Below, one piece after another: positions 2,919 to 38,466 of a stretch of 38,491 nt of DNA; within the stretch, counting starts at the first letter, position 1; each line of letters begins with the position of its first letter. The stretch is from assembly GCF_002095435.2 (NCBI RefSeq), contig NZ_MJEJ02000028.1, forward strand, positions 34,522 through 73,012. The letters run 5' to 3'. The notes beneath the pieces were generated by a model. It was given only the letters and a program-made list of their open reading frames with translations, searched no databases and was not told the origin of the DNA. Source of the DNA: Williamsia sp. 1138 (GTDB lineage: Bacteria; Actinomycetota; Actinomycetes; Mycobacteriales; Mycobacteriaceae). Position numbers and translations under genes: made by a program.

Positions 2919-3664
2919 TCCCCGGAAATGGGTTGTTCTGGCGAGGAAAAGCCCTGGTCGGCTCCGCCAGAACAACCCATCATCGGAGGACGGAAGTCGG
3001 CGGGTGGGCGGCCGGTCACGGATCGGAAGTCGCGGAACATGTGAGCGTAATCCGCATATCCGCAGTGGTGTGCCGTGTCGACGGCCGAACGGCCCGTCCG
3101 CAGATCGGCCATCGCCGCGTTCACCCGGAGTATCCGCTGCAACGCCTTCGCGCCGTAGCCGTAGTGATGCCGCGACCAGCGCTGCAGCTGCCGCGGACTG
3201 GCACTGATCTGATCGGCGACGCTCGCCACCTGATGACCCGCCGACAGCAGTGAGGTGGCCGGATGAAGCCATCGCGGAGGTGGGCTCCGGTCGACTTGCG
3301 CGGCCGCGAAACGCTCCAGGACATCTCCCGGTTCTCCGGCGGCGGCCTGCTCGGACAGGCAACGGGCCTGCGCCGACCCCGCGATGTCGGCGAAGTCGAC
3401 GCGGCCGTTGACCATCTCCTCGGCCGGTACTCCGAGTACCGACGGTGCGACGCCGGGATCGAACCGCAACGCCACCATGTCGCCGGAGCCCGTCGCGGTG
3501 ACCGGCCCCGTGTCGGGCCCGGCGATCAGCAGCCCGGTGCCCGTCCAGATCAAATCCATGCAGCCGTCCGGCAAGATCTCCGCAGGCGCAACCGGGCCCT
3601 GACGACGCCAGACCGTCGCCGGGACCAGCGTCGATCGCTGCTCGGAGTAACCCACACGCTCCAT
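2900..3664 (-). CDS. AraC-family transcriptional regulator
   Basis: This 254-aa protein starts at an ATG at 3662-3664, 38 bases from the divergent dapD start. The N-terminal half has the segment [12 protein letters not shown], typical of the small sensor domain found in actinobacterial AraC-like proteins (DUF6597 type). The C-terminal half has two helix-turn-helix motifs: [18 protein letters not shown], and [20 protein letters not shown] followed by TGRPPADFR, which is the AraC signature. It is therefore a DNA-binding regulator, possibly of dapD or the nearby VOC gene; the effector is unknown. Its last 25 codons contain a 16-bp perfect inverted repeat that looks like a terminator (listed separately). 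The end also overlaps the convergent VOC gene. Confidence 0.87.
2928..2980. terminator. Hairpin inside the araC-type gene's 3' end, shared by two convergent genes
   Basis: Bases 2928-2943 and 2965-2980 form a perfect 16-bp inverted repeat with a 21-base loop. It starts 9 bases after the VOC stop, so it is placed as a terminator for the plus-strand gene. For the minus-strand AraC-type gene the same hairpin is translated, because it lies inside the last codons. There is no long T-tract. Confidence 0.55.
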
Positions 3665-3688
3665 TGTCCTGGGTCGGGTCGCCCCGCG

Positions 3689-3702
3689 TAAACTCCAGAC
3701 CC
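3689..3702 (+). promoter_or_regulatory. Probable -10 box for a leaderless dapD transcript
   Basis: TAAACT at 3689-3694 lies 8 bases ahead of the dapD GTG at 3703, and no Shine-Dalgarno sequence is visible in between. This spacing fits transcription starting at or next to the GTG, giving a leaderless mRNA, which is common in mycobacteria and relatives. It is inferred from sequence only. Confidence 0.4.
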
Positions 3703-4653
3703 GTGACCAACGCATCTGGAGCCTCCGCAATCGGCATCGCCACCATCACCGACTCGGGCGCAGTGCTCGACACCTGGTATCCCTCCCCTGAATTGACCGA
3801 CGCAGGCGGATCCGGGACCACCGAACTCGACGCTGCCGACACCCCCGCCGAACTATCGTCGCTGGTGGGCACCGATTCAGACCGCGGCGTCCGGACCGTG
3901 GCGGTACGCACCTCGATCGTGCTGGCCGACGCTCCCGCCGACGCCCATGACGCGTACCTGCGTCTGCATCTGCTCTCGCACCGCCTCGTCATCCCGCACG
4001 GCGCCAACATGGATGGCGTCTTCGGCAAGCTGTCCAACGTGGTCTGGACGAACTTCGGTCCGTGTGCGGTCGACGGCTTCGAGGTGACCCGCGCCAAGCT
4101 CAAGAGCCGCGGCGCGGTGACCGTCTACGGCATCGACAAGTTCCCTCGAATGGTGGATTACGTTGTGCCGAGCGGAGTCCGGATCGCCGACGCCGGCCGC
4201 GTCCGCCTGGGCGCACACCTCGCCGACGGCACCACCGTCATGCATGAGGGTTTCGTGAACTTCAACGCGGGCACGCTGGGCCACTCGATGATCGAGGGAC
4301 GCATCTCGGCAGGCGTCATCGTCGGAGACGGTTCCGACGTCGGCGGCGGCGCATCGACGATGGGGACGTTGTCCGGCGGCGGCAAAGAGATCATCTCCCT
4401 CGGCAAGCGATGCCTGCTCGGCGCCAACTCCGGCTGCGGCATCGCGCTCGGCGACGATTGCGTGATCGAGGCCGGGCTCTACATCACCGCCGGCACCAAG
4501 GTCACCGGACCGGACGGCACCGTCGTCAAGGCCCGCGACCTCTCCGGCAAGAGCAACATCCTGTTCCGTCGCAACAGCACCACCGGTGCGGTCGAGGTCG
4601 TGCCGTGGAAGGGCGACGGTATCGAGCTGAACGCCGCGCTGCACGCCAACTGA
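3703..4653 (+). CDS. dapD: 2,3,4,5-tetrahydropyridine-2,6-dicarboxylate N-succinyltransferase
   Basis: DapD transfers succinyl from succinyl-CoA to tetrahydrodipicolinate, the committed step of the succinylase DAP pathway. The 316-aa protein matches the long actinobacterial type in motifs I recognise from the mycobacterial enzyme: [39 protein letters not shown] and [18 protein letters not shown]. These are followed by left-handed beta-helix hexapeptide repeats such as [17 protein letters not shown] and [19 protein letters not shown]. It acts as a trimer in the cytosol. The GTG at 3703 gives the family's usual N-terminus; an upstream in-frame ATG at 3664 would overlap the araC start. A strong hairpin follows the stop. 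Confidence 0.95.
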
Positions 4654-4675
4654 ATCGGGCGGTTCCACCGCTGCT

Positions 4676-4733
4676 CCACCCGAGTTTGCGCCGCCCACCG
4701 GTAATTGCCGGTGGGCGGCGCGAATTCGGGTGG
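4676..4733. terminator. Long bidirectional terminator hairpin between dapD and the Cys-rich operon
   Basis: Bases 4676-4701 pair with 4708-4733 over 26 positions. Twenty-four are Watson-Crick pairs and two are G-T wobbles, closing a 6-base loop (TAATTG). The stem lies 22 bases after the dapD stop and 38 bases after the end of the convergent Cys-rich gene, so it can serve both. There is no T-run, which is usual in high-GC actinobacteria. Confidence 0.75.
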
Positions 4734-4771
4734 GTGGTGGAGCCTGTGATGGCTGGCTGCTCTGTGGTTGA

Positions 4772-5053
4772 TCAGTCCCCTCCGCCGCCTCCACCGCAGC
4801 CCGAGCCACACGAGGAAGAGCTGCTGCACGACGACCCGGAGCTGCACGAGTTGCCTGAACCGCAGCTGTTGTTGCCATGGTGGTGCCCCGAATCCCAGGT
4901 GTCACCGGACGAACCGCTCCAGTGGCCACCGGTCCCGCCGGAATCATTCCGGTATCGGTCGGCCGCCCTGGATGAATGCGATCCCACGACCGCGATCAGG
5001 GCGATCACCGCCCCACCCGCCACACATGCCAGTATCACCACGAGAACTGTCAT
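4772..5053 (-). CDS. Single-TM protein with Cys every six residues in a Gly/Ser/His-rich tail (candidate RiPP precursor B)
   Basis: This 93-aa protein starts at an ATG preceded by GGAGG, 12 bases after the upstream Cys-rich gene. Residues 1-23 form one hydrophobic helix. Residues 25-35 carry the positive charges, so by the positive-inside rule the tail should face the cytoplasm. The tail contains GHHHG (56-60) and then cysteines at 64, 70, 76, 82 and 86, giving C-x5-C-x5-C-x5-C-x3-C in a Ser/Gly background. It is the last gene of an operon with a DUF692 oxygenase and its partner. DUF692 enzymes such as MbnB, TglH and ChrH modify cysteines of small peptides. A substrate role is inferred from this context. 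Confidence 0.72.
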   Translation of the reverse strand: MTVLVVILACVAGGAVIALIAVVGSHSSRAADRYRNDSGGTGGHWSGSSGDTWDSGHHHGNNSCGSGNSCSSGSSCSSSSSCGSGCGGGGGGD

Positions 5054-5065
5054 TGCCTCACCCTC

Positions 5066-5308
5066 CTACCCGCCGCTGCTTCCACAACCACCACCACCGC
5101 CGCCACCGGAGGATCCTCCCCCGCAACCGCTTCCGCACGAACTCCCGCAGGAGCCCCCACCACCGCCATCCCCGCCTCCGCTGCCGTCTCCGACCCAGCC
5201 GCCCGGACGCCGGCGGCGGGCCCTGTCCGTTCCAGAGTTGCTGTAGAAGGCCCTCGTCGAGAAGAGCACCGCTGCGCTCACGACGATCACAATCACCGCA
5301 ATGGTCAT
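5066..5308 (-). CDS. Single-TM protein with Cys/Gly-rich tail (candidate RiPP precursor A)
   Basis: This 80-aa protein starts at an ATG (5306-5308) that overlaps the stop of the partner gene as ATGA, with GGGAGGG just upstream. Residues 1-17 form a hydrophobic helix. A basic patch RARRRR at 29-34 suggests a cytoplasmic tail. The tail is almost all Gly and Ser, with cysteines at 54, 58, 62 and 75 (SCGSSCGSGCGGG). It resembles the downstream protein in its MT(I/V) hydrophobic start and its CGSGCGGG segment, so the two look like diverged tandem duplicates. The tight coupling to the DUF692/partner genes suggests it is their substrate. It lacks the larger TIGR04222-type domain I would expect in related actinobacterial loci. 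Confidence 0.75.
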   Translation of the reverse strand: MTIAVIVIVVSAAVLFSTRAFYSNSGTDRARRRRPGGWVGDGSGGGDGGGGGSCGSSCGSGCGGGSSGGGGGGGCGSSGG

Positions 5309-5778
5309 GACAATCCCTCCCTCTCGTCTTCCCGTGGTCGTGAAACAGCCAGATGCCAAGTGGTCGAACCGATCCCGATGATCCACACGCGCCTACCGCG
5401 ACAACGCACCCACGCAGACCGTGCGGCGCCGGCGTAGACCTTTTCGACGCGCACCCAGTCCCGTGTCACGCGGTCGACGTCGGAGCGCGTTCCGAGCCAC
5501 CGTGTGAACGCCGCGACATCGTCATGCGCACATCCGCTGACCGCGACCTCCCGTCCGTACTCGGCGAACCAGCGCCGCCACTGCGGCAGGGCGCCGAGTT
5601 GCGGTGCTGCCCGCAGGGCCGCTGATGCGCGTTTTCCGATCAGGATGTCGCTGGTCACCGCGGAGCCCACCGGATCGAACCCGTCCGGCACGCGGCCGGC
5701 CAGCAACTCGGTGACCACCGCGTGCTGCCTCGCTGCGAGCGCCGCCCGGGCGCCGTCACGTGCTGGGTTCGAGATCAC
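5305..5778 (-). CDS. DUF692 partner protein (SCO6045-like)
   Basis: I placed the start at the GTG 5776-5778, which has GGGAGGTGGG a few bases upstream and overlaps the end of the DUF692 gene by 23 bases. The 157-aa protein opens with RQHAVVTELLAGRVPDGFDP and then LIGKRASAALRAAPQL. This is the pattern I associate with the small partner proteins encoded beside actinobacterial DUF692 genes (SCO6045-like). The remainder, including WRRWFAEYG and a basic WVRCRGRRVWI segment, has no catalytic motif that I recognise. In characterised DUF692 systems the partner binds the precursor peptide and presents it to the oxygenase. That role is inferred here from position and the N-terminal motif. Confidence 0.7.
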   Translation of the reverse strand: MISNPARDGARAALAARQHAVVTELLAGRVPDGFDPVGSAVTSDILIGKRASAALRAAPQLGALPQWRRWFAEYGREVAVSGCAHDDVAAFTRWLGTRSDVDRVTRDWVRVEKVYAGAARSAWVRCRGRRVWIIGIGSTTWHLAVSRPREDEREGLS

Positions 5779-6658
5779 GCGATCCCACCTCCCGGCCAGA
5801 CGTTGCCGCGCTAATGATGTGGTCGATGACCTCCAGGTCGGCGGCCACCGCTGCTGAGGTGACGTCGCTGTCACGCTCGAGCATGATCCCCGGGAGCGGC
5901 AGACCGCCTTCGTCGCAGTGCTCGACGAACACTGTGAGCATCGACCCGACCTCCTCGATCATCGGATCTTCGTGGGTGTCGATGTACATTCCCTCCCGGA
6001 AGCGCCCACCGGCCGTATGGACATACGCAGCGTGCGCCAACGGGAACCGCCGGAGATCAGCCACCGGGTCGCCACCTCGGGCGGTTGCACTGGCGTAGAG
6101 GTTGGCCACATCGAGAACGAGTCGCACACCCGTGCGGCGGACGATCTCGGTCAGGTAGTCGGGTTCGTCGAACTCGTCTTCTGGCCAGCCGATCAGCGCC
6201 GCGACGTTCTCGAGCGCCAACGGCACCCCCAGCACGTCCTGAGCGCGGGAGATGTTGTCGCACAGAATTTCCAAAGCCTGGTGCGTCCGCGGTGGCGGCA
6301 GCAGGTGTCCGGCCTCGAGCACATCCCCGTGCATGGGGTCCGGCGACCCGGCGGCCCGGACGAAGGCGATGTGCTCGCTGACCAGCGGCGACTCCAGTTC
6401 GCGTGCCAACGCCGCGAGATGTGCCAGCCGGTCCGGGTCCGGTAGGTCCGCTCCAGCGAGACCGAGCCCCACCCCGTGCGGGATCACCACCACTCCCCGC
6501 GCCCGCAGTTCCTCGATCCCGCCGGGCAGCCGGCCGGGGGTCATGTTCTCGGCGACGACCTCGGTGAAGGTCAGCGATCCGGCGTCGGCGAGCCCGACGA
6601 GCATTTCCGAGATGGCCGGGCGCCACGCGATGGATGAGCCCGAGACTTGTGCCCTCAT
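5756..6658 (-). CDS. DUF692 multinuclear non-heme iron oxygenase (MbnB/TglH/ChrH-like)
   Basis: This 300-aa TIM-barrel protein keeps the metal-site pattern of DUF692: H61 (PHGVGL), E95-H96 (SEHIAF), E150-N151 (LENVA), D183 and N186 (LDVANLY), H214 (YVHTAG), D227 and H229 (IDTHEDP) and E261 (MLERDSD). Characterised relatives use two or three irons and O2 to rewrite cysteine residues of ribosomal peptides: MbnB makes oxazolone/thioamide, TglH excises a beta-carbon, and ChrH makes imidazolidinedione-type products. AAAGGA lies ahead of the ATG. It is the first gene of an operon with a partner protein and two Cys-rich membrane peptides. The chemistry performed here cannot be read from the sequence. 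Confidence 0.88.
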   Translation of the reverse strand: MRAQVSGSSIAWRPAISEMLVGLADAGSLTFTEVVAENMTPGRLPGGIEELRARGVVVIPHGVGLGLAGADLPDPDRLAHLAALARELESPLVSEHIAFVRAAGSPDPMHGDVLEAGHLLPPPRTHQALEILCDNISRAQDVLGVPLALENVAALIGWPEDEFDEPDYLTEIVRRTGVRLVLDVANLYASATARGGDPVADLRRFPLAHAAYVHTAGGRFREGMYIDTHEDPMIEEVGSMLTVFVEHCDEGGLPLPGIMLERDSDVTSAAVAADLEVIDHIISAATSGREVGSRDLEPST

Positions 6659-6828
6659 ATGCGCGTCCTTTCACTCGCTCACGAGTGGACGCCGTTGGCC
6701 ACATTCGAATCCGTTGTCCGAGTTACAGATTCGCAGTCACTTCTGTTCCTTGTCCACAGTTTCACCGAAACTTCGAGGCGTGGGGTAACGGACTGGTCTC
6801 AGATTGGACACAGCTGGAACGACGCAGG

Positions 6829-7944
6829 TCAGGAGGCCAGACGACTCGCCGCTTGCGCGATTCTCTCATCGGTGGCGGTCAAAGCCATCCGAACGTGCCG
6901 CACTCCGCGAGGTCCATAGAAGTCGCCGGGTGCGGCGAGGATTCCGCGGTCGGAGAGCCAGGCGACGGTCTCGCGACACGGTTCGTCCCGGGTGACCCAC
7001 AGGTACAACCCGGCGGCCGACTCATCGATCCGGAAGCCGGCGCCGGTCACCGCGTCCCGCAGGATCTCGCGGCGTCGGCGGTAGCGTTCCCGCTGGACGC
7101 TCGCGTGCCCGTCATCGCCGAGCGCAGCTGCCATCGCGGCTTGGATCGGGAACGGAACGATCATCCCGGCGTGCTTACGTACCGCCAGCAGTTCACCGAT
7201 CAGCGCGGGATCACCGGCAAGGAACCCGGCACGGTAACTCGCGAGGTTGGACGTCTTCGACAGCGAATGCACCGCGAGCAGACCGGTGTTGTCTCCGTCG
7301 GTCACCCGGGGGTCGAGAATCGAGACCGGCTCGTCGTCCCACGCCAGGCCGAGGTAACACTCATCCGACACGACGACCGTGCCACGCTCGCGCGCCCAGG
7401 AGACGACTTTGCGCAGATGCTCTACCGGCAGCACCTTGCCCGTCGGATTCGACGGCGAGTTCAGGTAGATCATCGCGGGTGCGGCCGGACCGATCTGGGT
7501 GAGCGAATCCGCCCGGAGAACATCTGCACCGGCCAGCAGAGCGCCGACCTCATACGTCGGGTAGGCGACCTCGGGTATCACGACCTGGTCACCCACGCCG
7601 AGCCCGAGGGTCGACGGCAATCCGGCGATGGCCTCCTTGGTGCCGATCACCGGAAGGATCATCGAGAGGTCCAGACCATCGATCCCGAACCTGCGCTGCA
7701 ACGCATCGATCGCCGCCCTGCGCACCTCGGGGGTACCGATGGTCGTCGGATACCCGGGAAAGTCGGATGCCGCCGACAGGGCGTCGCGGATCAGCGGATC
7801 AACCGGATCCACCGGCGTCCCGACCGAGAGGTCGACGATCCCGCCGGGGTGGGCAGCCGCGCGCTCCTTTGCATCGAGCAACGTGTCCCAGGGAAAATCC
7901 GGGAGTCGCCTCGACACCGGCGCTCGGCCGCGCAGCACAGACAT
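6829..7944 (-). CDS. dapC: N-succinyldiaminopimelate aminotransferase
   Basis: This PLP-dependent fold-type I aminotransferase converts N-succinyl-2-amino-6-ketopimelate and glutamate to N-succinyl-DAP, between the DapD and DapE steps. The 371-aa protein reads LPDFPWDTL, then LSVGTPVDPV, YPTTIGTPEVRRA, the conserved NSPSNPTGKVLP, VVSDECYLGLAWD, and the PLP-lysine segment HSLSKTSNLASYRAGF. The ATG at 7942-7944 gives the standard N-terminus; upstream in-frame sequence is the ferredoxin gene in another frame. Only 8 bases separate it from fdxC, and the fdxC-dapC pair is also adjacent in mycobacteria, so the two are very likely one operon. Confidence 0.93.
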   Translation of the reverse strand: MSVLRGRAPVSRRLPDFPWDTLLDAKERAAAHPGGIVDLSVGTPVDPVDPLIRDALSAASDFPGYPTTIGTPEVRRAAIDALQRRFGIDGLDLSMILPVIGTKEAIAGLPSTLGLGVGDQVVIPEVAYPTYEVGALLAGADVLRADSLTQIGPAAPAMIYLNSPSNPTGKVLPVEHLRKVVSWARERGTVVVSDECYLGLAWDDEPVSILDPRVTDGDNTGLLAVHSLSKTSNLASYRAGFLAGDPALIGELLAVRKHAGMIVPFPIQAAMAAALGDDGHASVQRERYRRRREILRDAVTGAGFRIDESAAGLYLWVTRDEPCRETVAWLSDRGILAAPGDFYGPRGVRHVRMALTATDERIAQAASRLAS

Positions 7945-7952
7945 CGGCGTCG

Positions 7953-8279
7953 TCAGTCCTCGGTGTTCATCGGAGGCAACGCCTTCACGAACGGCGAGTC
8001 GTGGTCGACCTTGCCGAGTTTGCTGGCTCCACCCGGGGACCCGAGATCGTCGAAGAAATCGACGTTCGCGTTGTAATATCCGGCCCACTCGTCGGGCACG
8101 TCATCTTCGTAGAAAATGGCCTCGACCGGGCACACCGGCTCGCACGCACCGCAGTCGACGCATTCGTCGGGATGGATGTAGAGCATCCGCCCACCCTCGT
8201 AGATGCAGTCGACTGGGCATTCCTCGACACATGCCTTGTCCAGGACATCAACGCAAGGCTCAGCGATGATATAGGTCAC
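7953..8279 (-). CDS. fdxC: 7Fe ferredoxin (3Fe-4S/4Fe-4S)
   Basis: This 108-aa ferredoxin begins at GTG 8277-8279 with GAGGAGGG upstream. It has C9, C17, C21 and C25, then C40, C43, C46 and C50 ([12 protein letters not shown]), the layout of Azotobacter-type seven-iron ferredoxins with one [3Fe-4S] and one [4Fe-4S] cluster. The C-terminal extension after residue 60 is also typical of actinobacterial FdxA/FdxC. It would be a low-potential cytosolic electron carrier for cytochromes P450 or other oxidoreductases. It lies directly upstream of dapC. Confidence 0.93.
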
Positions 8280-17461: not shown

Positions 17462-17854
17462 CTAGGTGAGCAAGCCGGCCAGATCGTCGAGCCAGACCGC
17501 ATCGGCGGGGACCAGGTCACCGTCGGCCGCCATCTGGCGCAGGGCACCTGCACCCACCCATCGCACCGCCGTGTGTTCGGTGGGCTCGGGATGCCCACCG
17601 ACCACCGTTGCCAACAGCGCGACAAGCACGAGATCTGCCTTGAGCGGCACCCCGACACCGATCTGATCTCCCGCCCGCACGTCGATCCCGAGTTCCTCGG
17701 CCAGTTCCCGTTCCAGGGCCCGGGCGCGCGTCTCGCCCTCCTCGACCTTGCCTCCCGGGAGCTCCCACAAACCTGCGACCTCAGGTGGATAGCTGCGTTG
17801 GGCGAGCAACAACAGGCCGTCCGAGATCACTGCTCCGGCGACCACCTCACGCAT
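17462..17854 (-). CDS. Nudix hydrolase (MutT/NUDT1-like)
   Basis: This 130-aa protein has an intact Nudix box, GGKVEEGETRARALERELAEEL, seen as GGK...E...RELAEELG near residues 34-57. It begins REVVAGAVISDGLLLLAQR, typical of MutT-type enzymes that hydrolyse oxidised or non-canonical nucleoside triphosphates. The ATG at 17852-17854 overlaps the end of the thiamine-type ATPase gene by 8 bases, so it is probably cotranslated with that transporter. That context allows a different substrate, such as a thiamine or pyrimidine pyrophosphate. The sequence alone does not settle it. Confidence 0.87.
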   Translation of the reverse strand: MREVVAGAVISDGLLLLAQRSYPPEVAGLWELPGGKVEEGETRARALERELAEELGIDVRAGDQIGVGVPLKADLVLVALLATVVGGHPEPTEHTAVRWVGAGALRQMAADGDLVPADAVWLDDLAGLLT

Positions 17855-18884
17855 GGGGCGCCGCCGATCCCGGTTCGGCGATGATCGCAATCCTGTTGGG
17901 ATCGAGGGTGATACCCACCTCGTCGCCGACCTCCACCCGGATGTCGCTCACTGCGTCGAGTTCGATACCCGCCGTCGACAGGCGCACTCGGACACCGTCT
18001 GGCAGCGATGCGACGTGCACCGCGCGCCCGACCGGCCGGCCACTGCCCACCGGACCTGCGATCACCGCCTCGGGCCGCAGGCCCAGTCGCACCGGCCCGT
18101 CGGGCAGATCGATCGGCACCGACCCGAGCGAACTGGCGAGCACGCCCCCGCGGACCACGCCGTCGCACAGGGTGGTGCAGCCGATGAACCGCGCGACACT
18201 CTCGGTGCGCGGTGTTCGCCACAGTTTTTCGGGTACGTCGTCCTGGATGATCCGACCCGCTTCCATGACCGCGATCCGGTCGGCCATCATCGCCGCCTCG
18301 GTGTGGTCGTGCGTCACCACGATCGTGGGCGTGGCGGTGGCGGCGATGACCTCCGTGATCTGCAGCGCGAGTCGTTCGCGCAATTGCCGGTCGAGTGCCG
18401 ACAGCGGTTCGTCCAACAACAGCAGCCGTGGTCGCGGCGCGAGCGCACGAGCAAGGGCAACCCGCTGTTGCTGACCGCCCGACAGTTCGGCGACCTTTCG
18501 GGACCCGAACCCGGCCAGGTCGACGAGGTCCAGCAGTTCGGAGACCCGCTCGGCGACCTCGCGTTTCGGCCGTCGTCGCACCCGCAGCCCGTAGGAGATG
18601 TTGTCGGCGACGGTCCTGCCCGGCAGCAGTTGCCCGTCCTGGAAGACGACCCCGAAGTCGCGGCGATGCACGGGGACGGGCGCCAGGTCCACGCCGTCGA
18701 ACGTGATGGCTCCCCCGGACAGCGGTTCGAGCCCGGCGATCGCACGGATCAGGGTGGATTTCCCGCATCCGGACGGGCCGAGCAGCGCAGTGATCGCAGC
18801 GCCAGAGGTGCCGATCGCGAGATCGAGTTCGGTGAGCACCATCTCTGAGCGGTAACCGACTGTCACACCCGACAACTCGAGCAT
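17847..18884 (-). CDS. Thiamine-type ABC transporter ATP-binding protein
   Basis: This 345-aa ABC ATPase drives the importer encoded upstream. Walker A is GPSGCGKST (36-44). The signature is LSGGQQQRVALARAL, Walker B with D-loop is LLLLDEPLSALD, and the switch His is in VTHDHTEA. The C-terminal 110 residues form a TOBE-like regulatory domain, as in Fe3+/sulfate/thiamine/polyamine-type importers. Its ATG overlaps the permease stop by one base (TGATG), and its stop lies inside the Nudix start region. Substrate assignment rests on the binding protein, which resembles ThiB/TbpA. A short E. coli ThiQ lacks such a tail, so this is an extended version. Confidence 0.88.
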   Translation of the reverse strand: MLELSGVTVGYRSEMVLTELDLAIGTSGAAITALLGPSGCGKSTLIRAIAGLEPLSGGAITFDGVDLAPVPVHRRDFGVVFQDGQLLPGRTVADNISYGLRVRRRPKREVAERVSELLDLVDLAGFGSRKVAELSGGQQQRVALARALAPRPRLLLLDEPLSALDRQLRERLALQITEVIAATATPTIVVTHDHTEAAMMADRIAVMEAGRIIQDDVPEKLWRTPRTESVARFIGCTTLCDGVVRGGVLASSLGSVPIDLPDGPVRLGLRPEAVIAGPVGSGRPVGRAVHVASLPDGVRVRLSTAGIELDAVSDIRVEVGDEVGITLDPNRIAIIAEPGSAAPHA

Positions 18885-20524
18885 CAGAACTCCCCTCCTT
18901 CATCTTTGCGGACGACTTCGATCAGAGCGACCACCGCGGCGGTGACGACCAGCATCATCACCGAGCACGCCATCGCCGTCGCAAAATTCCCCGAACCGGG
19001 TTTGGCCAAGGATGAGCCGATCAGCACCGGCACAGTGGTGGTGTCGGGCCGGGCAACGAAACTGGTGGCCCCGAACTCGCCGATGGCGATGACGAATGCG
19101 AAACCCGCTGCGGCACAGAGCGCCCGTTTGATGACCGGCAGATCGACGGTCCACCACACCCGTAGCGGTCTGGCGCCGAGGGTCGCCGTCGCCTGCCGCA
19201 GCCGGTCATCGACCAGGCCCATCGCAGGGACGAGGATCCGGATCACCAACGGGCAGGCGATCAGTGCCTGTACGGCCGGGACGATGGCCGGGGAGGTACT
19301 GATCTCGCGGGGCATCCCCGTCAGGATCACCAAGTACCCTAGGCCCACCGTGACGGCGCTGACGCCCAGCGGAAGCATCGCGACGACGGTCGCCGCGCCC
19401 GCCAGCACCCCGCGCGCCCGGGAGAGCGCGAGGGCGCCGAGCAGTCCGAGCACCATCGCGATGACCATGGCCCAGGTGGCGCTGATCAACGAATATTGCA
19501 TGCTCTGCCACGGCGTCTGACCGTTCACCGAGTCGAACAGCGCCCGGTAACCGTCGAGATTCCAGCTGCCGCCGACCGTGGGCCGTACCGAACGCCAGAG
19601 CAGGACGACCAGCGGCGCGATCAGGATCAGCAGGGCCACCGCGACAATCGCGACGATCGGCACCCACTGGCGCCCGTGTGGCCTGCGACGCCGCCGCGGT
19701 GCCCCGACCGCCCGTGCGCGGCGACCCAGCACCGCACTGATCGTCACCACCACCGCGACGACAACGATCTGCACCATCGACAATGCCACGGCGGCAGGCA
19801 ATTTGAAGAAGCCGATGGCCTGGCGGTAGATCTCGGTCTCCAGGGTGTTGTACCGACCGGCGCCGAGGATGAGCACCACACCGAAACTGGTGGCACAGAA
19901 CAGGAACACCACCGTCGCGGCCGACGCGATCGCCGGAGCGAGCGCGGGGACGGTCACGGTCCGGAGCACGCGCCACCGGTTCGCGCCCAGGGTCCGGGCT
20001 GCCTGCTCGGCCCGTGGGTCGATCTGAGCCCAGACCGATCCGACCGTCCGGACCACCACAGCGACGTTGAAGAACATGTGCGCCAGGATGATCGCCCAGA
20101 GGGAAGCGCCGATGCCCAGCCATCCCAGCGGTCCGCGGTCCCCCAGCAGCACCGAGAAGGCCACGCCGACGACGACCGTCGGCAACACGAAGGGAATGGT
20201 GACGATCACCCGGAACCCCAGCGCGCCGGGCAGTTCATAAGTGGCCAGGACCCAGGCCACGGGGAGACCGACAACCAGGGTCGCGGCTGTGGACGCCGCG
20301 GCCTGCGCGATCGTGAACCACAGGAGATCGGCCGCGTTCGCGTCGGAGAGCAGTTGCGGCAGGTTGCGGCTCTCGCCGTCGCCGAATGCCCGCACCGCGA
20401 GAGCCAACAACGGCCAGCCGAACATGACCGCAACGAACAACAGGGGTAGGACGCCCAGCAGCGCCAGGCGGGAACCACGCGGACGCCGGAGCGGGGGTCG
20501 GCCCTCGACCCGGCCTGCCGTCAC
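18884..20524 (-). CDS. Thiamine-type ABC transporter permease, fused two-domain
   Basis: This 546-aa membrane protein has about twelve transmembrane segments arranged as two homologous halves. Each half carries an EAA-type loop (TLGANRWRVLRTVTVPALAP in the first, TLGARPLRVWWTVDLPVIKR in the second) that contacts the ATPase. This fused architecture is that of ThiP/FbpB permeases. The GTG at 20522-20524 lies 5 bases after the binding-protein stop and gives a short basic N-terminus before the first helix. A longer frame from 20641 would run through the binding-protein gene. Together with its neighbours it should import thiamine or a related compound. Confidence 0.85.
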   Translation of the reverse strand: MTAGRVEGRPPLRRPRGSRLALLGVLPLLFVAVMFGWPLLALAVRAFGDGESRNLPQLLSDANAADLLWFTIAQAAASTAATLVVGLPVAWVLATYELPGALGFRVIVTIPFVLPTVVVGVAFSVLLGDRGPLGWLGIGASLWAIILAHMFFNVAVVVRTVGSVWAQIDPRAEQAARTLGANRWRVLRTVTVPALAPAIASAATVVFLFCATSFGVVLILGAGRYNTLETEIYRQAIGFFKLPAAVALSMVQIVVVAVVVTISAVLGRRARAVGAPRRRRRPHGRQWVPIVAIVAVALLILIAPLVVLLWRSVRPTVGGSWNLDGYRALFDSVNGQTPWQSMQYSLISATWAMVIAMVLGLLGALALSRARGVLAGAATVVAMLPLGVSAVTVGLGYLVILTGMPREISTSPAIVPAVQALIACPLVIRILVPAMGLVDDRLRQATATLGARPLRVWWTVDLPVIKRALCAAAGFAFVIAIGEFGATSFVARPDTTTVPVLIGSSLAKPGSGNFATAMACSVMMLVVTAAVVALIEVVRKDEGGEF

Positions 20525-20529
20525 CTCGG

Positions 20530-21561
20530 TCAGCGGCCCATGACGGTGCGCCACTCCTGCTGCCACGCCTCCCGGTTCTCCGCGATGACTCCGGCCGGCA
20601 TGGAGGCCACGAACTCGGGCTCGGGTGCGTATTGCGCCCATTCAGCGGGCAGCGGTGTACCGGTCCGCACCGGATAGACGTACATCGATTCGGGCAGTGC
20701 CGCCTGCACGGGTTCGCTCAGCAGGAAGTCCACCACCTTCTGGCCACCTTCGACGTTCTCGGCGCCGCGCAGCACCCCCGCGTATTCGGTCTGCTCGAAG
20801 CAGGTGTTCAGCAAGGCCTTTGTTGTCGGCAGATAGGCGGGCGACGAGGCGTAGGAGACGACGACGGGCTTGGATCCCTTGCCCTCTCCGGCCGTGAACT
20901 CCTGGTTGTACGCCTCCGACCACCCGGGAGCGACCGCGACCTCGTTGTCGCGCAGCCGCTGCCAGTAACCTTGCCAGCCGCCTGCGGTCGAACTCGGGTA
21001 CGCGGCGATGGTCGCGAGCAGGAATGCCATCCCCGGCGACGACGTCGCGGGGTCGAGAACCACGGTCAGACCCTTGTAACGGGGGTCGGCGAGATCAGCG
21101 AAGTTCTGTGGGGGTTGCTGCCCTCGCTGTGCGAACCAATCGCTGTCGACGTTCACGCAGACGTCCCCGCGATCGATCGCGGTGAGGCGGTTGGGTTCGG
21201 GCAGGGCGTGCTCGTTCGGCCCGAGACCGTTGTCAGGGCTCGTGTAGGGCTCGAGGGCGTCCGCGTCGAGTACCCGCGACGCAAAGGTGTTGTCGATGCC
21301 GTAGACGACGTCCCCGCGGGGCGATCCGGCCGTCAGCGCGATCGACGATGACAACTGACCGGCATCGGACTCCTTCACGACCTTCAGGGTCAGTCCGGTC
21401 TGATCCTCGAATGAGCTCAGCAACTCGTCGGGCAATGCAAAGGAATCATGTGTGAGCAGCACGACTTCGTCGTCGGACCCCGAGTCGCCACAGGCGCTCA
21501 GCGCAGTCGCACCGACCGCCGCAGCGATCAGGACTGCAGCGATTTGGACTCTTCGACGCAT
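20530..21561 (-). CDS. Thiamine-type ABC transporter substrate-binding lipoprotein
   Basis: This 343-aa lipoprotein has a signal peptide ending LSAC with the acylated Cys at 24. The mature part shows motifs I recognise from E. coli TbpA/ThiB: LLTHDSFALPDELL (compare TYDSFA), DVVYGIDNT, DPATSSPGMAFLL (compare DPRTSTPGLGLL), PGWSEAYNQEF, VVVSYASSPAY and the C-terminal MYVYPVRTGTPLPAEW. It therefore most likely binds thiamine or its phosphates outside the membrane. TGGAGG precedes the ATG. It is the first gene of the permease-ATPase-Nudix operon. I found no TPP riboswitch consensus upstream. Confidence 0.85.
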   Translation of the reverse strand: MRRRVQIAAVLIAAAVGATALSACGDSGSDDEVVLLTHDSFALPDELLSSFEDQTGLTLKVVKESDAGQLSSSIALTAGSPRGDVVYGIDNTFASRVLDADALEPYTSPDNGLGPNEHALPEPNRLTAIDRGDVCVNVDSDWFAQRGQQPPQNFADLADPRYKGLTVVLDPATSSPGMAFLLATIAAYPSSTAGGWQGYWQRLRDNEVAVAPGWSEAYNQEFTAGEGKGSKPVVVSYASSPAYLPTTKALLNTCFEQTEYAGVLRGAENVEGGQKVVDFLLSEPVQAALPESMYVYPVRTGTPLPAEWAQYAPEPEFVASMPAGVIAENREAWQQEWRTVMGR

Positions 21562-37251: not shown

Positions 37252-38445
37252 TTAGGCGGCGGCGTGTACGGCAAGTAGTTCCGTCAAGGCTTGGGCCGGA
37301 GTTTTCCACTCCAGGGTTTCCCTCGGCCGTCTGTTGAGGGTCGCAGCGACGCGGGCGACGTCGGCTGCGGTGTGCACGCTCAGGTCGCTGCCTTTGGCGA
37401 ACCAGTGGCGCAGAAGCCGGTTGGTGTTCTCGTTGCTACCGCGCTGCCACGGTGAGTGTGGATCGCAAAAGTACACAGGCGCTTGGAGTTCGAGCTGAAT
37501 CCGGTCGTAGGCGGCGAGCTCGGTGCCGCGATCCCAGGTAATGGATCGCCGTATGTGGGCGGGCAAGTCTCCCATCGCTGTGATCATCGCGCCAGCAACG
37601 GTATCGGCTTGGTGATTGCCCGGCAGGTGCAGCAAGATCACGAACCGGGAGGTTCGTTCGACCAACGTCCCGATCGCTGTGCCACCGGACCCCATGATCA
37701 GGTCACCTTCCCAATGCCCCGGAACCTTGCGATCTTTCACGTCAGGGCGGTCAACGATCTTGAGGGCTTTGTCGTAGATTTTGCCCTGTCGACTCGCGCT
37801 GATTCGCGACTTGCGCGCCGGCCTACTGGTGGACAGAGTCTTGTACAGGTCCGCCCGCAACGACCCACGCGACTGGACGTACAACGTGTTGTACAGCGTC
37901 TCGTAACTAATTTGATGCGCCTTGTCGTTGGGGAACTGAATCTTGAGCGAATGCGACACAAGCTTGGGACTCCACCCGTCGTCAAATGAGTCTTCTATCA
38001 TCTGCTGTTCGGGGTGGCCATCGAGCTTGAATGCTTTAGGCCGCAACGCATTGACCTTGGATCGCTGGTGCGCCATCAGCGCGTGATACGTGCCGTCGGC
38101 GTTCGAGTTGCGGCCGATCTCACGCCACACCGTCGTCCGCGGCCGACCTATGAGTATCGCGATCTCAGTGACGCCCAGATCGCGTTGCAGCGCCGACTGG
38201 ATCTCGATCCGCTCGCCCAACCCCAGTCGATGCCCACGCGTCTCAGTGCCATCGTCGTCGACCACAACCGCCAGGCCGCCTACTCCGCCCTTCATCAGTG
38301 TCATGCCGCCAGCATTCGCCCACCAGCGGTCGGCAGTGCTGTTCGACACGCCCATTACCCGAGCCGCAAAATCCTTCGTCGACCCCGTACAAAGCAGATC
38401 GAAGAACCCAAACCGAATAGCAATATCAAACGGACGTCTACCCAT
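37252..38445 (-). CDS. IS30-family transposase
   Basis: This 397-aa DDE transposase has the IS30 features: an N-terminal helix-turn-helix segment, a second DNA-binding segment RLGLGERIEIQSALQ followed by LGVTEIAILIGRPRTTVWREI, and catalytic D248 (GHWEGDLIMG), D305 (TWDRGTE) and E339 (RGSNENTN). Asp305 and Glu339 are separated by 33 residues, the IS30 spacing. The ATG at 38443-38445 has GGAGG five bases upstream; a TTG further out would overlap that ribosome site. Length is normal for an intact member, and I see no frameshift, so it may be active. Confidence 0.95.
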   Translation of the reverse strand: MGRRPFDIAIRFGFFDLLCTGSTKDFAARVMGVSNSTADRWWANAGGMTLMKGGVGGLAVVVDDDGTETRGHRLGLGERIEIQSALQRDLGVTEIAILIGRPRTTVWREIGRNSNADGTYHALMAHQRSKVNALRPKAFKLDGHPEQQMIEDSFDDGWSPKLVSHSLKIQFPNDKAHQISYETLYNTLYVQSRGSLRADLYKTLSTSRPARKSRISASRQGKIYDKALKIVDRPDVKDRKVPGHWEGDLIMGSGGTAIGTLVERTSRFVILLHLPGNHQADTVAGAMITAMGDLPAHIRRSITWDRGTELAAYDRIQLELQAPVYFCDPHSPWQRGSNENTNRLLRHWFAKGSDLSVHTAADVARVAATLNRRPRETLEWKTPAQALTELLAVHAAA

Positions 38446-38466
38446 CGCAACCTCCAAGCAGTCAGT

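Follow-up and report, generated by a model that had tools for sequence, protein, structure and literature searches.

A candidate MNIO modification cassette in Williamsia with two single-helix, cysteine-tailed membrane proteins as predicted substrates

Oxygenases of the MNIO (DUF692) type are cytosolic enzymes, and the substrates of the MbnB/MbnC and TglH/TglI systems are short leader-core peptides that, in contrast to the proteins described here, have no membrane helix. A locus of Williamsia sp. 1138, at which an MNIO gene and a partner gene are followed by two genes for small proteins with a single helix and a cysteine-containing tail, raises the question of whether membrane-anchored proteins can themselves be the substrates of such an enzyme. 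The locus lies between dapC and dapD in the stretch of 38,491 nucleotides that was analysed, referred to as the window (Table 1). Its architecture had been described in a first-pass annotation as four minus-strand genes, the first three overlapping by 23 and 4 bases and the last following after a gap of 12, and the coordinates agree exactly: the MNIO and partner genes share 5756-5778, those of the partner and small protein 1 share 5305-5308, and 5054-5065 separates the two small-protein genes. Scans for sigma-70-like promoters and terminators found no match in window positions 4500-7000, what we take to be a RicR-like box pattern has no match in the window, and a PADLOC search for defence systems returned nothing for the four cassette proteins at E <= 0.01.

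Table 1. Features of the cassette and its flanks, in window coordinates
Feature	Coordinates	Strand	Description
MNIO (DUF692) oxygenase	5756..6658	-	300 aa, ATG start; PF05114
Partner protein	5305..5778	-	157 aa from GTG; helical N-terminal domain and short beta C-terminal part
Small protein 1	5066..5308	-	80 aa; one helix, Arg patch, GGWVGDG, tail with 4 Cys
Small protein 2	4772..5053	-	93 aa; one helix, SSRAADRYR, His-containing linker, tail with 5 Cys
dapC	6829..8088	-	Flank marker upstream, outside the cassette; TIGR03539, 584 bits
dapD	3664..4653	+	Convergent flank marker; TIGR03535, 520 bits
Intergenic stretch dapC/MNIO	6659..6828	-	Conserved block CCAATCTGAGACC..TCCGTTACC, seven Williamsia sequences aligned

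Elsewhere in the window are a type I cysteine dioxygenase gene (PF05995; 8647-9222) near fdxA and dapC, an ABC transporter set comprising ATPase, permease and solute-binding protein (17847-21561), and a transposase with an integrase core and HTH_38 domain (37252-38457) that is presumably IS30-like.

The enzyme, its partner and the small proteins

The oxygenase matches the Pfam profile PF05114 with E = 2.8e-57 and a score of 194 bits, where the cut-off is 25. Its best NCBIfam model is the bufferin maturase BufB, at 147 bits against a cut-off of 310, which makes it a relative and not a member. The nine best PDB matches of an AlphaFold2 model (pLDDT 85) are chains of TglH, HS_1138 / 3bww and MbnB, with E values from 8e-17 to 9e-12. 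The metal site, previously annotated as intact, indeed retains the site-3 residues N186, D227 and H229, which are invariant in all 18 aligned rows, the window included; the same is true of H61, H96, E150, D183, H214 and E261, which we assume to be metal ligands. According to the available excerpt of the relevant study, N175, D242 and H244 of HvfB were studied as site-3 ligands, and their substitution abolished activity (PMC13419390). HvfB N175 was placed at N186 by counting along the 3bww alignment, and we infer from the D-x-H motif common to MbnB and TglH that D242 and H244 correspond to D227 and H229.

The partner had been labelled 'SCO6045-like', a description that was not upheld: its 189-aa reading has no match to any Pfam or NCBIfam model, DUF2063 included, at E <= 1. 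An AlphaFold2 model (pLDDT 87) consists of a helical N-terminal domain and a small three-strand part, and in this it resembles the PME-type 2 partners as they are described in the available excerpts of Antoine et al. 2025 (PMC12452194); it also shares with them a gene position beside the MNIO and the lack of a DUF2063 signature. A Foldseek search of the PDB with this model gave no match at E <= 0.001, a profile of the partner found only four antibody chains among PDB sequences (E at least 0.28), and an hhalign comparison of the profile with five DUF2063-type partners, two of which had themselves been scanned and matched to DUF2063, was not significant (P 0.11, probability 0.5%). Kinship with the type-2 partners is not shown by these fold and profile tests, and the protein is therefore termed 'type-2-like' by position only.

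That the last two genes encode one-helix proteins of 80 and 93 aa with Cys/Gly/Ser tails, as first annotated, is borne out by their ORF coordinates and sequences. A genome of high GC content readily yields Gly/Ser/Cys-rich frames, which might suggest that both are chance ORFs, and the scan used to collect similar proteins, hereafter minis, is indeed not free of these, as it also caught single-helix cysteine frames lying across long genes (for example at L035 and L160). Against this, comparison with five Williamsia relatives gives dN/dS values of 0.10-0.33 for small protein 1 and 0.06-0.35 for small protein 2, alongside 0.15-0.20 for the MNIO, and the 12-base gap between the two genes is kept in 5/5 of the relatives compared; the low dN/dS and fixed spacing indicate that these are real genes. 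Furthermore, a helix followed by at least three [SGN]C[GS] tail units occurs in just two of the 448 window frames of at least 50 codons, namely the two small proteins, and the mini of T. tyrosinosolvens is annotated as a gene. The chance-ORF reading of the window pair is ruled out by the dN/dS values, the fixed gap and the frame counts, and we regard its probability as negligible. The same helix and cysteine-unit pattern is found in 30 of 2474 frames at the 21 loci L039-L059, all 30 adjoining the MNIO by their coordinates, and in 0/219 frames of four control stretches, of which two share some sequence.

In total, 44 minis of 75-123 aa were collected, some of them identical or nearly so. In both window proteins the helix leads into a stretch with Arg, then a linker rich in Gly and finally the Cys tail, and across the 44 minis the tails have one to seven cysteines. 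Of the 194 tail cysteines, 192 have S, G or N before them and 191 have G or S after them, and at least two tail histidines are present in 28 of the 44. Small protein 2 also has a cysteine within its helix (ACVAGG), as do its Williamsia relatives. The linker often includes an aromatic residue followed by Gly or Asp-Gly, found in 14 of 21 representatives against a mean of 8.9 in shuffled sequences (16 of 2000 shuffles were as high); as the representatives were hand-picked from the 44 minis and the pattern itself was devised once the sequences had been read, its candidacy as a recognition motif is suggestive only.

Distribution of the cassette and its enzyme type

The order MNIO, partner, small protein 1, small protein 2 is found in eight of nine Williamsia genomes. 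In the ninth (G001), MNIO and partner are both missing and the final aligned codons of dapC and dapD are only 95 bases apart, so the cassette is absent from that locus; no mini is present at its dap locus either. Across the family, 107 of 401 genomes have an MNIO, and 22 of the 401, the window included, have one of the window type, scoring 182-203 bits against PF05114. All 22 encode at least one mini adjoining this MNIO. The other 85 MNIO genomes were covered in part, through L009-L038, each with flanks of 1.5 kb, and through the majority of L060-L078, and the covered loci outside the 182-203-bit type held long proteins, no mini that was found, or frames overlapping long genes.

Eighty named loci were also included, of which 14 belong to the window-type group (L079-L090, L092 and L093), four of these being places already represented among the 22 genomes. 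A mini with at least three tail cysteines stands beside the MNIO at 11 of the 14, and at two more (L087 and L088, around 5254-5510) a mini with a single tail cysteine (GYSGASCG) lies beside MNIO and partner. In N. albus (L083) the MNIO stands alone, and the mini is directly behind the partner, approximately 19 kb away. DUF692 loci that consistently lack the Cys-rich genes had been named at the outset as the observation that would speak against a common system; in fact a mini adjoins the MNIO at 13 of these 14 loci, as in all 22 genomes. The other 66 named loci, mostly from Streptomyces, have long multi-helix Cys-tail proteins or gave nothing in the mini scan, which uses thresholds, such that Streptomyces rows without a match are those in which that scan found none. 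Minis also occur in Nocardioides, Aeromicrobium, Metallococcus and Mycobacteroides, and two are present at 11 of 33 loci.

Gene order varies outside Williamsia. In T. tyrosinosolvens (L159, 2995-4573) the cassette again lies behind dapC, the stop of which overlaps the start of the MNIO, and is ordered MNIO, mini, partner; a second MNIO, accompanied by a TIGR04222 protein, is found on another record of the same organism. A link of the cassette to lysine/DAP genes is seen in both Williamsia and T. tyrosinosolvens. At L051 and L054, two minis are situated between MNIO and partner.

An iterated profile detects the partner family at 146 of 153 loci, duplicates included, with no match at L009, L060-L063, L083 and L121. 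At E <= 1e-6, 72 of the 401 family genomes carry it, all of them within the 107 that have an MNIO, the remaining 35 of which are without a match at this threshold. At 54 of 152 loci (L047, L053 and 52 of L091-L158, mostly Streptomyces), the partner domain and MNIO are fused in one reading frame. Its confinement, among the genomes sampled, to those with an MNIO and its fusion to the enzyme elsewhere tie the partner to the oxygenase.

A tree was built from 59 MNIO rows, comprising 31 mini loci, 23 hand-chosen long-type loci, four BufB and N. albus; L079, L080, L081 and L085 (the same places as L045, L041, L044 and L052) were left out, as were L159, which like L058 is a Tsukamurella locus, and the remaining long-type loci. 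A single group, with an SH-aLRT of 93, which is below the starred level, contains 29 of the 31 mini rows together with N. albus, and all 23 long-type rows fall outside it. The label 'mini' changes three times on this tree, against a mean of 19.8 when labels are shuffled. The two exceptions, L047 and L053, are MNIO-partner fusions with an upstream mini, and are placed outside the group on a long branch; as this branch meets that of the outgroup, their placement is unsure. Enzyme type and precursor type largely match, as would be expected for an enzyme and its substrate. The originally proposed system, a DUF692 enzyme and dedicated partner with two small-protein substrates, is accordingly favoured by co-conservation, co-absence, fusion and the tree, with the modification itself remaining a prediction.

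Tail topology and relation to published MNIO systems

In all 40 minis in which the nearest Met can be placed, the segment from this Met to the helix is free of Lys and Arg. Among the four in which it cannot is the mini of N. albus, which has a Lys directly after its likely GTG start. By contrast, the first 25 residues past the helix contain a mean of 5.6 Lys or Arg, and are net positive in 39 of the 44 minis and not in the other five. Few charges before the helix and positive charge after it would leave the tail in the cytoplasm under the positive-inside rule, itself a rule of thumb, and we consider a cytoplasmic tail fairly probable. This placement had been proposed from the start; it agrees with the charge pattern under that rule, and is the weaker part of the earlier proposal. 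The long Cys-tail proteins are ambiguous by the same kind of count, being net positive after the last segment in 33 of 72 cases.

Membrane-protein precursors had been thought unusual, yet a precedent exists. In the available excerpts of Antoine et al. 2025 (PMC12452194), TIGR04222 proteins, 70 to 643 residues in length, are presented as MNIO-linked membrane proteins with Cys tails and as candidate MNIO substrates. The minis share with these, as so described, a Gly/Ser/Cys tail past a membrane segment, an apparent lack of a Sec signal peptide, a position adjoining the MNIO, a partner that is type-2-like by position and an occurrence mostly in Actinomycetota. They differ in having one helix instead of several with a large domain, in sometimes forming tandem pairs, and in the predicted location of their tails, which Antoine et al. 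put in the periplasm for TIGR04222. Neither the window pair nor five other minis scored over the cut-off of the TIGR04222 profile, whereas all four of the long relatives scanned did so. As the published sizes begin at 70 residues, short TIGR04222 members may be similar to minis.

Other MNIO systems provide partial parallels. With the bufferins and oxazolins (BufA/B/C, HvfA/B/C) the cassette has in common an MNIO nearest to BufB among NCBIfam models, repeated cysteine units and a likely role with metals. Bufferin precursors have Sec signal peptides and DUF2063 partners in the excerpted account (PMC12452194); the window partner has no DUF2063 match, and no positive n-region is seen by Lys/Arg count in the 40 minis with a placeable Met. 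MbnB/MbnC and TglH/TglI are similar in enzyme fold and enzyme-partner layout. The excerpts of the same paper also mention uncharacterised proteins, rich in Cys or very small, that accompany MNIOs: adjamnio-I, of 122-293 aa and encoded upstream of the MNIO, from which the minis differ in size and gene order, and adjamnio-V, given there simply as very small proteins whose genes follow those of MNIOs. The minis may overlap with adjamnio-V and with the shortest members of TIGR04222. Judged by titles and abstract openings, no paper among the matches listed concerned single-helix Cys-tail precursors. TIGR04222 is not mentioned in the available portions of PMC12668002 and PMC12636315, the latter of which describes lipid-anchored MNIO products, another route to tethering. 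Relative to the excerpts of Antoine et al. 2025, what is new is a set of proteins with a single helix and no match to TIGR04222, which sometimes occur in pairs and whose tails are predicted to be cytoplasmic, and the cassette looks like a pared-down version of the TIGR04222 systems already published.

Proposed mechanism, alternatives and implications

The locus is probably a modification cassette of minimal size, in which an MNIO acts on precursors anchored in the membrane, and the prediction that both small proteins are substrates of the adjoining enzyme is one in which we have good confidence. The N-terminal helix would insert the small protein with its N-terminus out and C-terminus in. A complex of MNIO and partner might then bind the juxtamembrane basic and aromatic-glycine stretch and oxidise cysteines within the repeated [SGN]-C-[GS] units of the tail. 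A 5-thiooxazole or related heterocycle is a candidate product, with a likelihood that we put slightly short of even. The modified tail, which often has His nearby, would bind metal, a prediction somewhat more apt to be right than wrong; copper would be the initial candidate, as in the analogous bufferins and oxazolins. Such a tail would remain anchored in the membrane and serve there as a metal buffer.

The orientation of the tails and the identity of the substrate both admit other readings. If the helix were a Sec-inserted segment with its N-terminus inside, or a cleaved signal peptide, the tails would face outwards, and the minis would be extracytoplasmic metal binders similar to bufferins or TIGR04222 proteins; since MNIOs are cytosolic, modification prior to export would be possible. 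The Sec signals of bufferin precursors and the periplasmic TIGR04222 tails, both as given in the excerpts of Antoine et al. (PMC12452194), favour this arrangement, and the Lys ahead of the N. albus helix departs from the usual mini pattern, but the absence of Lys and Arg before the helix in 40/40 placeable minis and the mostly positive region after it run counter to it, and we consider outward-facing tails rather unlikely. Alternatively, the Cys- and His-rich tails could hold metal as they are, in the manner of metallothioneins, with the MNIO acting on another substrate. It is consistent with this that, in the available text of PMC12452194, over a quarter of TIGR04222 proteins have no C-proximal Cys and a third of the genomes with TIGR04222 have no MNIO. 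However, minis track the MNIO type in every one of the 22 genomes and are missing from the dap locus of the MNIO-less Williamsia, and the window has no further frame with the helix and cysteine-unit pattern to offer as the other substrate, leaving unmodified binders improbable.

If the preferred reading of a modification cassette with membrane-anchored precursors is correct, it would strip the TIGR04222 idea, that of a membrane protein bearing a modified tail, down to a single helix, linker and repeat. Membrane proteins as MNIO substrates, an open issue in the available part of Antoine et al. 2025, would thereby become testable with four short genes, and the range of one to seven tail cysteines forms a natural series for locating the unit of modification. 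More speculatively, and with considerable doubt on our part, MNIOs may make permanent membrane-tethered metal-binding surfaces that face the cytoplasm, formed by single-pass proteins in which the basic and aromatic-glycine juxtamembrane stretch replaces the leader and a tail of one to seven cysteines is modified in place and never released.
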